The notes beneath the pieces were generated by a model. It was not told where the DNA came from. It saw only the letters and a list, made by a program, of their open reading frames with translations, and ran no database searches. A program made the translations under genes and the position numbers. From Brevibacterium sp. 'Marine' (GTDB lineage: Bacteria; Actinomycetota; Actinomycetes; Actinomycetales; Brevibacteriaceae), in contig NZ_CP051626.1 in the NCBI RefSeq assembly GCF_012844365.1, forward strand, positions 3,100,001 through 3,164,000: a stretch of DNA of 64,000 bases, given 5' to 3'. Below are positions 17,011 through 20,360 of this stretch, in pieces. Each line of letters starts with the position of its first letter. The stretch's first letter is position 1.

Positions 17011-17936
17011 GCCTGGACGCCTTCGCCGGCCGTATCGCTGACAGAGGTGAGCGTGTCGAGGCTGATTCTCGCCTCTGCGAGTCGGTCGCCGTCGACGGCG
17101 TGGAGTGCGTCGAGGAAGTTCACCGAGTAGCTTCCCGGCCCCTTTGCGCCGTCGGCCGCGAGTTCGCCGGCGACCGCGAAGTGTGCATGGGCGGCGATGA
17201 CGGCTTCGAACCTCGCCGAGGCGGCCCCACCGTCGGTGGTGCGCTCACTTGCGTTGACGGCCGAGGCATCGCCGTCAGAGTCGGCGAGGCCTGCCCGGGC
17301 GGAAGCCAGGTAAGCGACGGTGACGGCGCCGAGTGAGCACCCGGTGCCGATGACGAGCGGCATGAACTCATGTCCGCCGGAGACGCGGGCGACGTGGTCG
17401 GCGCCGTCGATATGGGCGACGACGGCATCGGTGGGTCCGGAGACGGCGACGATGGCACCGGTTTCTCGGGCCAGCTTTGCGGCGGCGGGAAGGACGGCGT
17501 CGACTTCGTCGGTGGAGTCCACTCCACGACCGCCGAGTCCGACTCCGGCGAGTGCTGCGATCTCGGAGGCATTGCCGCGGATGGCGGTTGGGTGATCGGC
17601 GGCGGCGCGGCGGATGCGGGAGGTGCGGAAGTCGACGGCACCGACGCTCACGGGGTCGAGGACCCAGGGTTTGCCGGCGGCGTTGGCGACGTCGATGGCG
17701 GCATCGGCGGCGAGCAGCTGATGGTTCGAGGCGGTGCCGAAGTTGACGAGAACTCCGCCGGCGATTCCGGCGAACTGTCCGGCGTCGGCTTCGTGGTCGA
17801 GCATCGCCGGGGAGGCGCCGACAGCCAGGAGCACGTTCGCGCTGAACTGCTGCACGACGGTGTTCGTGATGCACTGGATGAGTGGATTGCTTGCGCGCAG
17901 TCGCGCATTCGCAGAACGCAGGTCGAAGTCAACCAT
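17007..17936 (-). CDS. thiM: Hydroxyethylthiazole kinase
   Basis: 309-residue ribokinase-fold kinase that salvages the thiazole moiety by phosphorylating 4-methyl-5-hydroxyethylthiazole. Motifs: PLIQCITNTVVQQFSANVLLAVGASPAM, VLVNFGT, PWVLDPVSVGAVDFR, IRGNASEIAALAG, VSGPTDAV, GTGCSLGAVTVAYLA. It is first in the thiM-thiE-thiD cluster directly behind a TPP riboswitch, so TPP should repress it. A loop about residues 225-240 (SDGDASAVNASERTTDGGAASARF) is non-conserved and carries a CCGAGGCGG repeat copy (17216-17224). Confidence 0.95.
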   Translation of the reverse strand: MVDFDLRSANARLRASNPLIQCITNTVVQQFSANVLLAVGASPAMLDHEADAGQFAGIAGGVLVNFGTASNHQLLAADAAIDVANAAGKPWVLDPVSVGAVDFRTSRIRRAAADHPTAIRGNASEIAALAGVGLGGRGVDSTDEVDAVLPAAAKLARETGAIVAVSGPTDAVVAHIDGADHVARVSGGHEFMPLVIGTGCSLGAVTVAYLASARAGLADSDGDASAVNASERTTDGGAASARFEAVIAAHAHFAVAGELAADGAKGPGSYSVNFLDALHAVDGDRLAEARISLDTLTSVSDTAGEGVQA

Positions 17937-17941
17937 GACGA

Positions 17942-18047
17942 TCCCTTCGCTAGTATGGCCCAGATCAGGTTCGATGGGTGTTCTCTCAGCCTCGGTGTCC
18001 TCCGTGCGCAGCGTCTCGGTGCGAACGGATCCTCATGAGGCACCCCA
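17942..18047 (-). promoter_or_regulatory. TPP riboswitch (THI element)
   Basis: Read on the minus strand, the leader begins ATGGGGTGCC, passes a variable stem, then GGCTGAGAGAACACCC, then GAACCTGATCTGG, and ends with TACTAGCGAAGGGAT. These are the pyrimidine-sensor (CUGAGA), pyrophosphate-sensor (ACCUGAUCUGG) and closing (GCGAAGGGA) elements of the TPP aptamer. The last helix ends only about 5 nt from the thiM ATG and includes the GAAGGGA ribosome site, so control is most likely by sequestering translation initiation. It governs thiamine salvage genes thiM, thiE, thiD and possibly tenA. Confidence 0.97.
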
Positions 18048-18194
18048 TGTCATTGGCTTCGACTGTATCAGCCTGTCCGGACACGGGCGACTTCCACAGT
18101 CACAAGGTCAAGCCGGGGAATGAGCGCCGATCCACGTTGTGCGCCATGCTGGCCGTTGAGTCTCCGTGCAAGACTGATTGCGCGGACCTCGGTG

Positions 18195-18290
18195 CTGTGA
18201 GATTATTGAGGTGGTAGCAAGGAGTTCACCTCCTAGAGCGCCAAGTCGCAAGCCCACGTCTCAGACGTGGGTTTTTGCGTTGGGCCTCGT
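18195..18290 (+). ncRNA. Structured-RNA-like element upstream of the DUF3800 gene
   Basis: A compact stem-loop block ends about 30 nt before the DUF3800 ATG. It contains AGGAG-ttcac-CTCCT (18220-18234), an alternative GAGGTG/CACCTC pairing (18208-18213 with 18227-18232), and a strong CCCACGTC-tca-GACGTGGG hairpin (18253-18271) followed by TTTTT. The last is enclosed by CGCAA (18247-18251) and TTGCG (18275-18279). Structured RNAs called DUF3800 motifs are known from comparative genomics upstream of DUF3800 genes. I believe this is a member, but which numbered motif I cannot say. The final hairpin plus U-run would also end a short transcript. Confidence 0.6.
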
Positions 18291-18317
18291 GTCAGAGCCG
18301 CTGGGTAGAGTTTGCCC

Positions 18318-19211
18318 ATGCTGCTCGCCTATATCGATGAGATCGGTGAACCCGGCCCTTACGTCGCCAAAGACCACCCGAGATTCAACACTAATCCCGT
18401 CTTCGGCTATGCAGGCTTCGTCATTCCCGAAAGCTCGGCTCGGAGGTTCGGTCAGATCTTCACAGCAGAGAAGCGACGCGTCTTTGCCAGCGAGCTTCGG
18501 GGCGTGGAGAACCCGGGCCGCTGGGAGCGAAAGGGCTCAGATATCTTCACCCCAGACGCTTGGCGAAGTTACGGTGAGCAGATCCGTGTCTTTCGCGGAC
18601 TGATCAACAGGCTCGCAGAACTGAGCGGACGCGTCTTCTTCTATGCCGAACAGAAGGAGGTCGGCACCAGGAAGCAGGTGCGACTCTCCGATGAGCAACG
18701 CGAAGCTTCAGCTATGCGAGAGTCGGTCAATCGTCTCTGTCGTCACGCGGACAATTGCGGCGAGAATCTACTGATGCTGATGGACCAGATCAATGAGAAG
18801 CAACGGGCTGCAAGAGTAGCGACGATATACGCACACATATTCTCGCGTGCCCAAGAATTCAGGGAAATGAATGCTGCCATTGAGCCGCCCATGCACATCG
18901 ACAGTGCTCTCAGCTCCAATATTCAGTTTGCCGATTGGATAGCAGCATCTGTCAGCCGAGCCATCGACTACCAACTCGAACGCGAATCAAAGTACGACTG
19001 GGTACCTCAGGCTCTCGGCAGCCACATGCACCATCGCATCACATACGAATCCAAGCTTCGCCTCTGGCAGAGTTCGCTGGGCGATCTGAACAACTTCGAC
19101 GTATTCAAAGCCGAGAGGCCTTACCTGGATGGATTGCACACCGGGCCTATGAGTCCAGAAGATCTCGCGAAACTGCAAAAGGTCAAGCACGCTACTGTCA
19201 AACGAAAATAG
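18318..19211 (+). CDS. DUF3800 domain protein
   Basis: 297-residue protein with the DUF3800 layout. An N-terminal YIDEIGE motif (residues 5-11, family form Y-I-D-E-S-G) starts a beta strand. A helical, Arg/Glu-rich middle follows, then a C-terminal HIDSALSSNIQFADWIAASVSRAID (about 193-217), matching the conserved 'D..S.....Q.AD..A....R'. Aspartates D7, D195 and the AD pair suggest an RNase-H-like metal site; the family is predicted to be nuclease-like but is uncharacterised. The ATG at 18318 is chosen over a TTG two codons upstream. It is preceded by the structured element at 18195-18290. Codon use is a little less GC-rich than neighbours, hinting at mobility. Confidence 0.85.
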   Translation: MLLAYIDEIGEPGPYVAKDHPRFNTNPVFGYAGFVIPESSARRFGQIFTAEKRRVFASELRGVENPGRWERKGSDIFTPDAWRSYGEQIRVFRGLINRLAELSGRVFFYAEQKEVGTRKQVRLSDEQREASAMRESVNRLCRHADNCGENLLMLMDQINEKQRAARVATIYAHIFSRAQEFREMNAAIEPPMHIDSALSSNIQFADWIAASVSRAIDYQLERESKYDWVPQALGSHMHHRITYESKLRLWQSSLGDLNNFDVFKAERPYLDGLHTGPMSPEDLAKLQKVKHATVKRK

Positions 19212-19244
19212 TCCAAGTTCAGCTCCGCACTCCGCTGTGATGCC

Positions 19245-19709
19245 CTACTTCTGCCGATGCGCCCATTTCTCGTCGGGCATTCCCGGCCCTTTGGAGACGG
19301 TGACGATGTCAGGCTGCTGACCACAGGAGTCACAGCGAATCGAGCTGTGCACTTCGCCTTCACAGTCGTCGTGTCGGTAGATGATCGGCCTCCCGTTCGG
19401 CGCTTCCCAGCGATCTCCCCAGTCGGTGAACGCAATGAGCACGCCTTTGAGATCATGTCCCTTGTCGGTGAGCACGTACTCGACTCCGGATGGATTCGGC
19501 TGCCGAGTCATGACTCCGGCATCGACGAAGCCGTCGAGCCGCTTGGTGAGGATGTTGGTCGCCACTCCCAATCGCTTCTGGAAGTCGCCGAAGCGAGTGA
19601 CCCCGGCGAAGAGCGCGTTTCTGATGATCAGCAGGCTCCAGCGTTCGCCTACGATCTCCAAGGTCCGCGCGATCGAACACACTTCATCGTCATACGTTCT
19701 GCCCAACAT
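19245..19709 (-). CDS. HxlR family transcriptional regulator
   Basis: 154-residue winged helix regulator of the HxlR/MarR-like group. The signature CSIARTLEIVGERWSLLIIRNALFAGVTRFGDFQKRLGVATNILTKRLDGFVDAGVM is complete, with the wing YVLTDKGHDLKGVLIAFTDWGDRW. The C-terminus carries a conserved RCDSCGQ pair of cysteines as in the longer HxlR subgroup. It is divergent from a broken SRPBCC gene; two dyad-like sites in the spacer (19730-19746, 19771-19787) are probably its operators. Such pairs usually regulate the divergent gene in response to small electrophiles or aromatics; no effector can be inferred. Confidence 0.92.
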   Translation of the reverse strand: MLGRTYDDEVCSIARTLEIVGERWSLLIIRNALFAGVTRFGDFQKRLGVATNILTKRLDGFVDAGVMTRQPNPSGVEYVLTDKGHDLKGVLIAFTDWGDRWEAPNGRPIIYRHDDCEGEVHSSIRCDSCGQQPDIVTVSKGPGMPDEKWAHRQK

Positions 19710-19729
19710 AGAAGAGAGTCTACCTATTC

Positions 19730-19787
19730 ACTTGCATGACGAAAGCATAGGTGGGATGATCGATCCATCGACTTGCATGACGCAAGT
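19730..19787. promoter_or_regulatory. Pair of HxlR-operator-like sites
   Basis: ACTTGC-ATGAC-GCAAGT (19771-19787) is a perfect 6-bp-arm dyad. A diverged copy, ACTTGC-ATGAC-GAAAGC, lies 41 bp upstream (19730-19746), about four helical turns away on the same face. Both lie between the divergent HxlR and SRPBCC starts. Confidence 0.6.
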
Positions 19788-19823
19788 TGAGAGAACGACA
19801 AACAACGGCAAAGGAGCCTGACA

Positions 19824-20333
19824 ATGTCTGCACACAATCCCACTGCTCTTCCCGACACCGAATCAACATCGGACTTCACCTTCAGCTATGAGGTCACGCA
19901 ATCACCACACGCAGTCTTCGATGCGGTGACGAATGTGCGCGGCTGGTGGTCGCAGCGCATCGACGGGGCGACCGACCGCCTCGGCGAATTCGTCTACACG
20001 GTGCCGCAGATCCACACCACCCGCGCCGAGATCATCGAGCTGGTTCCCTCGGAACGGGTCGTCTAGAGAATCCTGGACAACCAGTTCGGAACCTCACCCG
20101 ACGAGATCGATGAGTGGGCCGGGACGACCGTCCGCTTCGACATCGAGCCCACGGGGTCAGGCACTCGGCTGACATTCACCCATGTGGGCTTGACCCCGGC
20201 GCTGGCCTGCTATGACGGATGCGCTCGAGGATGGACACGCCACGCCCACGACAGCCTGCACCAGCTCATCACGACGGGAGTGGGCAACCCGATCACTCCG
20301 GCGATCGAGGCCGAACTGATCACCGAGCCGTGA
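19824..20333 (+). pseudogene. SRPBCC/AHSA1 domain protein interrupted by an in-frame TAG
   Basis: The reading frame from ATG 19824 (AAAGGAG site) encodes a START/SRPBCC-like protein: FTFSYEVTQSPHAVFDAVTNVRGWWSQRIDG... VPQIHTTRAEIIELVPSERVV, then TAG at 20064-20066. The same frame then continues without further interruption as RILDNQFGTSPDEIDEWAGTTVRFDIEP... LTFTHVGLTP... WTRHAHDSLHQLITTGVGNP to TGA at 20331-20333. Relatives have Trp at this point (RVVWxVLDN), so a single TGG to TAG change explains it. The 170-codon frame keeps its coding character after the stop, implying a recent mutation, readthrough or a sequencing error. Confidence 0.85.
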
Positions 20334-20360
20334 CTTTCAGAACCTCGTATCTCGTCAGCA

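Follow-up and report, generated by a model that had tools for sequence, protein, structure and literature searches.

Type III toxin–antitoxin systems (ToxIN, CptIN, and TenpIN) carry an RNA antitoxin composed of tandem repeats. RNAs near DUF3800 genes are also a known kind, and DUF3800-associated RNA motifs were reportedly described by Weinberg et al. in 2017; like the RNA analysed here, these are structured RNAs upstream of DUF3800 genes, and their role is unknown. RF02968 (DUF3800-IX) and RF02969 (DUF3800-I) are the Rfam families of this kind named in the available excerpts of PMC11701678, and some Cas12a2 (V-A2) and VI-F loci contain DUF3800 proteins according to excerpts of PMC10910872 and PMC12669027. 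No tested function for a DUF3800–RNA pair was found in the accessible passages of open-licence PMC papers. In the AbiF/RCd22 pair of a C. difficile prophage, as excerpted from PMC12373285, a structured RNA upstream of the protein gene has its own promoter and a terminator with read-through, and neutralises the toxin directly.

Here we analysed a window of 64,000 nt, the whole stretch of DNA taken from Brevibacterium sp. 'Marine', in which a DUF3800 gene is preceded by a small structured RNA. The pair resembles AbiF/RCd22 (PMC12373285, excerpts) in its prophage occurrence, its promoter-like boxes and the terminator-like shape of its RNA, whereas AbiF is an Abi_2 domain protein and the protein here is DUF3800. 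The abiF motifs carried by the AbiF RNA (RF03085) had no match in Rfam scans of the window and related loci, and toxicity and neutralisation were proven for AbiF/RCd22 (PMC12373285, excerpts), whereas the module here is known by comparison. With ToxIN, a type III system in the available part of PMC8860590, and with CptIN and TenpIN, it shares an upstream RNA, a predicted nuclease and a phage or plasmid setting. It differs from them in its predicted RNase HII-like fold and its single RNA unit without tandem repeats, and because of the latter we did not file the pair as type III.

An initial annotation had proposed that the RNA and the protein form an RNA-guided, RNA-inhibited or toxin–antitoxin-like module. 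A covarying RNA tied to the DUF3800 gene stood up to comparison, and the inhibited or antitoxin-like version fits best by analogy; the guided version did not, since no variable guide segment was found. We regard it as an evenly balanced proposition that the pair works like AbiF/RCd22 or a type III system, with the RNA binding and restraining the nuclease, and we favour this antitoxin reading over those of an active RNA–protein particle, a cis-acting leader or a guide RNA. With somewhat less assurance, we suggest that such pairs, from Actinobacteria to proteobacterial temperate phages, may form an unrecognised class of RNA-restrained nuclease, in which a two-hairpin RNA would control an RNase HII-like protein and the pair would exclude competing phages or secure its element. 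If true, the RNase H fold would underlie a new kind of RNA-antitoxin system. The features of the window are as follows.

18178..18206, + strand: likely promoter of the small RNA, TTGCGC (18178-18183), 17-nt spacer, GATTAT (18201-18206)
18213..18281, + strand: small structured RNA of ~69 nt, two hairpins and a linker, from alignments A1 (36 rows) and A4 (23 rows), covariation and solo fold; both ends putative
18213..18242, + strand: hairpin 1, from the solo fold and the consensus of relatives
18243..18252, + strand: linker, AAGUCGCAAG in the window, near RAUUCSGAG in many relatives
18247..18279, + strand: hairpin 2 (P3), terminator-like, CCCACGTC/GACGTGGG (18253-18271), outer CGCAA/TTGCG, U-run 18272-18276
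18306..18311, + strand: possible -10 box of a leaderless DUF3800 mRNA, TAGAGT, 6 nt before the start codon
18318..19211, + strand: DUF3800 protein gene, 297 aa, predicted RNase HII-like fold, invariant D7, E8, D156 and D206

Structure and conservation of the pair

The window protein matches DUF3800 (PF12686) with an E value of 1.3e-12 and 49.1 bits against a cut-off of 21, as the initial annotation had held, and no other Pfam domain was found in it. ATG at 18318 fits the relatives as its start codon, and TTG at 18312, which disagrees with them, was dropped. The metal-dependent nuclease fold proposed earlier is borne out by prediction only: the predicted structure is nearest to type 2 RNase H, RNase HII/HIII being the nearest among the matches listed (9–16% identity), and D7, E8, D156, and D206 are invariant in the protein alignment. 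ToxN-like folds were not among the structural matches listed, an absence that excludes nothing. Unlike RNase HII/HIII, the protein has a paired RNA and a mobile distribution. No sequence relative was found in the PDB, NCBIfam gave nothing useful, PADLOC gave only a weak unrelated match (E 0.019), and the PHROGs match was phrog_26069, whose function is unknown.

The locus is indeed less GC-rich than its neighbours, with 56–57% in the 1-kb intervals of 18000-19999 versus 60–71% in the other intervals listed, and this dip across the gene fits a gained segment. The flanks had been described as a thiamine operon and an HxlR pair. We found a minus-strand hydroxyethylthiazole kinase gene with a TPP riboswitch and one HxlR gene; next to the latter is a small ORF, of which 80 aa were scanned with no Pfam match. 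The frame of this ORF (19824-20334, + strand) runs on past a TAG at 20064-20066, which is either a broken gene or a sequencing error, and our guess is that it resembles an SRPBCC/AHSA1-type protein. The same genome carries a second DUF3800 gene of another subfamily outside the window (G000:C1:3011140-3011727, minus strand).

Upstream of the gene, a 141-nt stretch folded better than its shuffles (z -2.32; 3/200 shuffles as good). When 18213-18281 was folded alone, hairpin 1 comprised P1, with GG/CC (18213-14 with 18241-42) and GC/GC (18217-18 with 18238-39), and P2, with AGGAG/CTCCT (18220-24 with 18230-34), followed by the long hairpin 2, in agreement with the consensus of the relatives. The loop of hairpin 1 is a short UUCAC in the window's clade, versus the usual UGA..AAYAGU. 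Five linker bases (18247-18251) pair with 18275-18279 in hairpin 2, whose core CCCACGTC-TCA-GACGTGGG is exact at 18253-18271; a pattern search gave two matches, both strands of this one palindromic place, with 0.04 expected. Thus, among the nested stems noted initially, AGGAG/CTCCT, the core hairpin, CGCAA/TTGCG and the U-run were retained, and GAGGTG/CACCTC, which is absent from the relatives' consensus, was dropped. The letters UCACCUCCU in the window RNA, presumably those of the 16S 3' end, were not taken as meaningful because they are confined to the window's clade. It is likely, judging from these comparisons, that a small structured RNA gene lies upstream of the DUF3800 gene.

The same RNA was found upstream, on the gene's strand, in all 32 actinobacterial loci, a set chosen by similarity to the window protein. 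Their upstream regions were read by eye before any RNA model existed, and the model (R1) was then built from these loci, in which it scores 45–92.7 bits. RNAs outside alignment A1, which holds the 32 loci, the window and three relatives of the window's genus (36 rows), scored 85.6 (G083), 78 (G180), 75.9 (G293), 69.1 (G241), 68.9 (G260), 67.5 (G197), and 60.2 bits (G239), and 72.7 bits on a Gordonia plasmid. The consensus is roughly GGUAGCUA-GGGA-UGAAACAGU-UCCC-CGAGCGCC-RAUUCGAGAAACCCACGC-loop-GCGUGGGUUUCUGCGUU. In A1, 91.6% of cells were paired versus 32.5–53.6% in slid controls, the stems covaried with double changes at 17 of the 22 pairs, which clearly contradicts the lack of covariation that the initial annotation had named among its refuting conditions, and none of the five covariation measures was reached by any shuffle; these controls are not probabilities, because the structure was drawn from the same sequences and the rows are related. 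The pairing and the RNA structure are thereby established by comparison. Column pair 14-48 is A-C in 15/36 rows, G-U in 7/36 and otherwise mismatched in 14/36; A-C and G-U pairs are similar in shape. In four rows the apical loop is longer and can fold into a hairpin of its own, nested in the main one. An alternative helix, AGCGC/GCGUU, may compete with P1; it was paired in 84.9% of cells with a double change at only one of five pairs, and was set aside as lacking covariation support.

If the sequence were an ordinary intergenic terminator with chance stems, the terminator shape of hairpin 2 would be accounted for, and the 16 low-scoring model matches that we inspected do resemble plain terminators or chance. 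This reading is refuted by the covariation of hairpin 1 in Actinobacteria, a hairpin that also forms in the distant set described below, and the linker is conserved across phyla; we give it almost no credence. It is very unlikely, too, that the RNA serves as a guide, base-pairing with nucleic-acid targets to bring the nuclease to them. The predicted protein has an RNase H fold, as do the RuvC domains of RNA-guided nucleases, and DUF3800 is linked to some CRISPR loci (PMC10910872, PMC12669027, excerpts). The 36 aligned RNAs, however, contain no variable unpaired run of the kind a guide would have, and unpaired columns outside the P3 loop are 80% identical versus 81% for paired ones (75% for unpaired columns with the loop included; columns over half gaps left out of these averages), for which reason the RNA is not guide-like. 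Each locus has one RNA match on the gene's strand, with no tandem repeats.

Unlike the DUF3800 RNA motifs in Rfam, the window RNA is matched by no Rfam model. The DUF3800 covariance models, which had been suggested as a check, matched neither the window at gathering thresholds nor 17900-19600 at E<=10, and gave no match in sets of 18, 15, and 17 related loci at gathering, nor with relaxed cut-offs in one locus and in a set of ten. On the RNA, none of the 4,227 Rfam 15 models reached threshold in the stretches scanned, and the only match in the window at gathering was the TPP riboswitch on the other strand. The window RNA is possibly a published DUF3800 motif absent from Rfam. Several sub-threshold matches were set aside: snoU83B over part of the RNA (E 6.3); in L041, rnk_pseudo (E 0.047, 22.2 bits versus 55, the best loose match on the RNA), istR, BSnc120, and Leu_leader; and inside the DUF3800 gene the archaeal-type snoRNA sR14 (18400-18467, minus strand; 23.3 bits versus 38, E 0.0013), most likely by chance.

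Promoter-like boxes

The box GATTAT ends 6 nt before the RNA start and matches TATAAT at 4/6 positions, though not TANNNT. Across A1, TANNNT precedes the RNA start by 7 nt in 23/36 rows and by 6 nt in another 7, a total of 30/36 against a shuffle maximum of 5. Near-consensus sigma-70 promoters (at least 9 of 12) were also found just before hairpin 1 in 15 of 23 distant loci, versus 2.1% of shuffles. A second box precedes the gene. A -10-like hexamer (4/6 to TATAAT) precedes the start codon by 6 nt in 17/35 and by 7 nt in 5 more, that is, in 22 of 35 distinct actinobacterial loci (shuffle maximum 5); with strict TANNNT the count was 4/35, equal to the shuffle maximum of 4. These promoter-like boxes are established by comparison; a generic promoter and terminator scan of the window listed neither promoter box, nor hairpin 2 as a terminator.

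These boxes bear on whether the RNA could be a cis-acting leader or attenuator of DUF3800 expression, perhaps bound by the protein itself. Its position directly upstream on the same strand, with a terminator-like hairpin at its end, is as expected of a leader, and read-through would be required at the 13/35 loci that lack a -10-like box ahead of the gene, some of which show, by eye, a Shine-Dalgarno-like stretch. In the 22 other loci, however, an mRNA starting at the box would exclude the RNA. Leaderless DUF3800 mRNAs may thus be common, which lowers the likelihood of a purely cis-regulatory leader; the RNA also persists without the gene, as described below. We therefore consider a leader improbable. 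The same boxes also speak against the antitoxin reading, since leaderless promoters would allow the gene to be expressed without the RNA, as does the fact that the generic scan of the window listed neither the boxes nor hairpin 2.

Retention of the RNA and of the gene

When 297 genomes of the order were searched with model R1, 54 of them gave matches at E<=0.01. Fourteen RNAs were accepted, 13 at >=44 bits and one (G304) at 30.2 bits that is followed by the gene, and the other 40 matches, all <37 bits, were treated as terminators or chance after the sequences of 16 had been inspected. The protein clade was found by protein profile in 7/297 genomes, all seven with the RNA and one (G105) with a broken gene. 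Among the 14 RNA genomes, six have an intact gene, four a broken gene or remnant, and four none seen. The remnants are clear in G105 and G175, and in G083 and G293 they are short pieces at the right place (tblastn E 0.09–0.8). No DUF3800 gene was seen beside the RNA in G180, G241, G197, and G021. The Pfam model found no DUF3800 anywhere in G083, G180, G293, G241, and G021, and G175 and G197 carry DUF3800 of another kind elsewhere, a point that counts against the antitoxin reading. The RNAs with a broken or absent gene (n=8) nevertheless keep 17–21 of the 22 pairs, versus 16–22 beside intact genes. Similarly, the genes of the 32 loci are intact in 27, cut by the contig end in one and broken in four, and the RNAs of the latter keep 20–21 pairs. 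A sample of 345 genomes from across the class, partly shared with the order sample, gave no further accepted RNA or protein; G634 (37.5 bits) was rejected as a terminator beside tRNA-like sequence, and G095 (33.4 bits) was not accepted.

No protein of the window's clade was found without the RNA in the 297-genome sample or the 32 loci, whereas the RNA is often found without an intact gene. This suggests, as far as gene content can indicate, that the RNA is harmless alone and that the protein needs it, an asymmetry that is partly expected because loss is more likely to strike a gene of 900 bp than an RNA of 70 nt. Among the 38 genomes of one genus, three carry the RNA, one together with the gene and two without it, and one uninspected match scored 31.5 bits; solo RNAs are sporadic in this genus, the one checked, and may therefore be recent leftovers.

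The dependence of the protein on the RNA would also be expected if the RNA were a required structural partner that activates or positions the nuclease in one active particle. The clade's protein was not seen without the RNA in 7/7 genomes and 32/32 loci, the unpaired motifs UGA..AAYAGU and RAUUCSGAG are conserved, and DUF3800 occurs in some Cas12a2 (V-A2) and VI-F loci (PMC10910872, PMC12669027, excerpts). A pure cofactor, however, would be unneeded where the gene is broken or gone, and the RNA is well kept there (8/14), although recent loss could explain this. We judge such a particle to be somewhat unlikely, and retain the antitoxin reading as the better one.

In the window's genus (57 genomes), the element is present with the gene in G066 and G077 and without it in G021; in nine other genomes of the genus, the kinase and permease genes adjoin and the element is absent. 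A search of 11 loci of this genus with the model at E<=1 gave no RNA. In one relative from this genus (L017), the kinase and permease genes flank the HxlR gene and the small ORF, with no DUF3800 or RNA match, a layout indicating that these neighbours come and go separately. In three actinobacterial loci (L044, L055, and L033), tRNA genes adjoin or lie near the module and are possible integration sites.

Related pairs in plasmids, phages and prophages

Distant homologues of the protein, with 23–28% identity in alignment A6 and 26.8–31.9% for full-length tblastn matches, were preceded by an RNA consisting of hairpin 1, a UUCC-containing linker and hairpin 2, followed mostly by UUCGUGUUU or similar. 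By eye, this related RNA was present in 14/14 viral contigs (11 distinct upstream sequences), in 13 of 14 plasmid loci, two of them actinobacterial, that were retrieved from lists of 19 and 21 records, and in both phage records fetched of four listed, the two unfetched ones being near-copies by their listing. R1 scored 84.1 and 47.7 bits on the RNAs of L121 and L122 and was weak on proteobacterial RNAs (13.5–34.9 bits where found), so the cross-phylum claim rests on reading by eye and on A4. In the 23 rows of A4, 98.0% of cells of hairpin 2 were paired versus 33.9–53.0% when slid, with double changes at 7/11 pairs. On two of the five measures, A4 does not stand clear of its shuffles (pair types reached in 312/500, pairs with double changes in 6/500), and the others were reached in 0/500. 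Hairpin 1 had a fold z below -1 in 20/23; no column-wise covariation is claimed for it here because MAFFT does not align it in this set. No visible RNA was seen in the upstream region of L152 (Agrobacterium), which has partial similarity, and no such RNA was seen upstream of DUF3800 genes of other clades (the second gene of the window's genome, L113, and L119; start codons of L115 and L119 guessed), where R1 gave chance-level matches only in L113 and none in L115 and L119.

The mobile and prophage setting is likewise established by comparison, and in some prophages the pair occupies sites known for superinfection exclusion. In E. coli JL05, it belongs to a lambdoid prophage next to intD and tRNA-Arg, where it directly follows the S24 repressor gene and precedes kil/gam/bet/exo; lambda has rexAB at this position. 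Accessory genes that are expressed together with the repressor, and RexAB-mediated exclusion, are described in PMC3564112 (excerpts). With one prophage pair as query, the identical pair was found in 5 of 5,426 complete E. coli genomes, repressor-adjacent in the one examined. Among 10 contigs with listed ORFs, 5 have a same-strand S24 repressor gene ahead of the pair (not all neighbours scanned): it is the next listed ORF in L139 and L144, is separated by a KilA-N or Bro-N gene in L136 and L145, and is ~2 kb away in L143. In phiO18P, the module lies between rep and portal, the region of old/tin and an anti-phage hotspot of P2-like phages (PMC9122126, excerpts); it is beside an integrase gene in L122 and after a tail gene in L140. 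The Thioclava plasmid p6 (L131, 4,712 bp) lists one gene besides the module in a gene table that may be incomplete, and so tiny a plasmid suggests a plasmid-keeping role.

We infer transcription, termination, binding, inhibition, nuclease activity and phage exclusion as steps of the antitoxin reading. The ~69-nt RNA would be made from its own promoter and end at hairpin 2, and the DUF3800 nuclease would be expressed through read-through or from a separate leaderless promoter that closely follows the RNA. Bound to the nuclease, the RNA would keep it inactive until a competing phage or loss of the element upset the balance, and the freed nuclease would then harm the infected cell or the invader. 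That a single RNA architecture accompanies a single DUF3800 clade in different phyla, together with the predicted RNase HII-like active site and the location at exclusion sites, allows a cheap direct test in E. coli. The C4 antisense RNA and the isrK RNA share prophage regions with the module (L134, 1937-2131; L153, 2347-2531).
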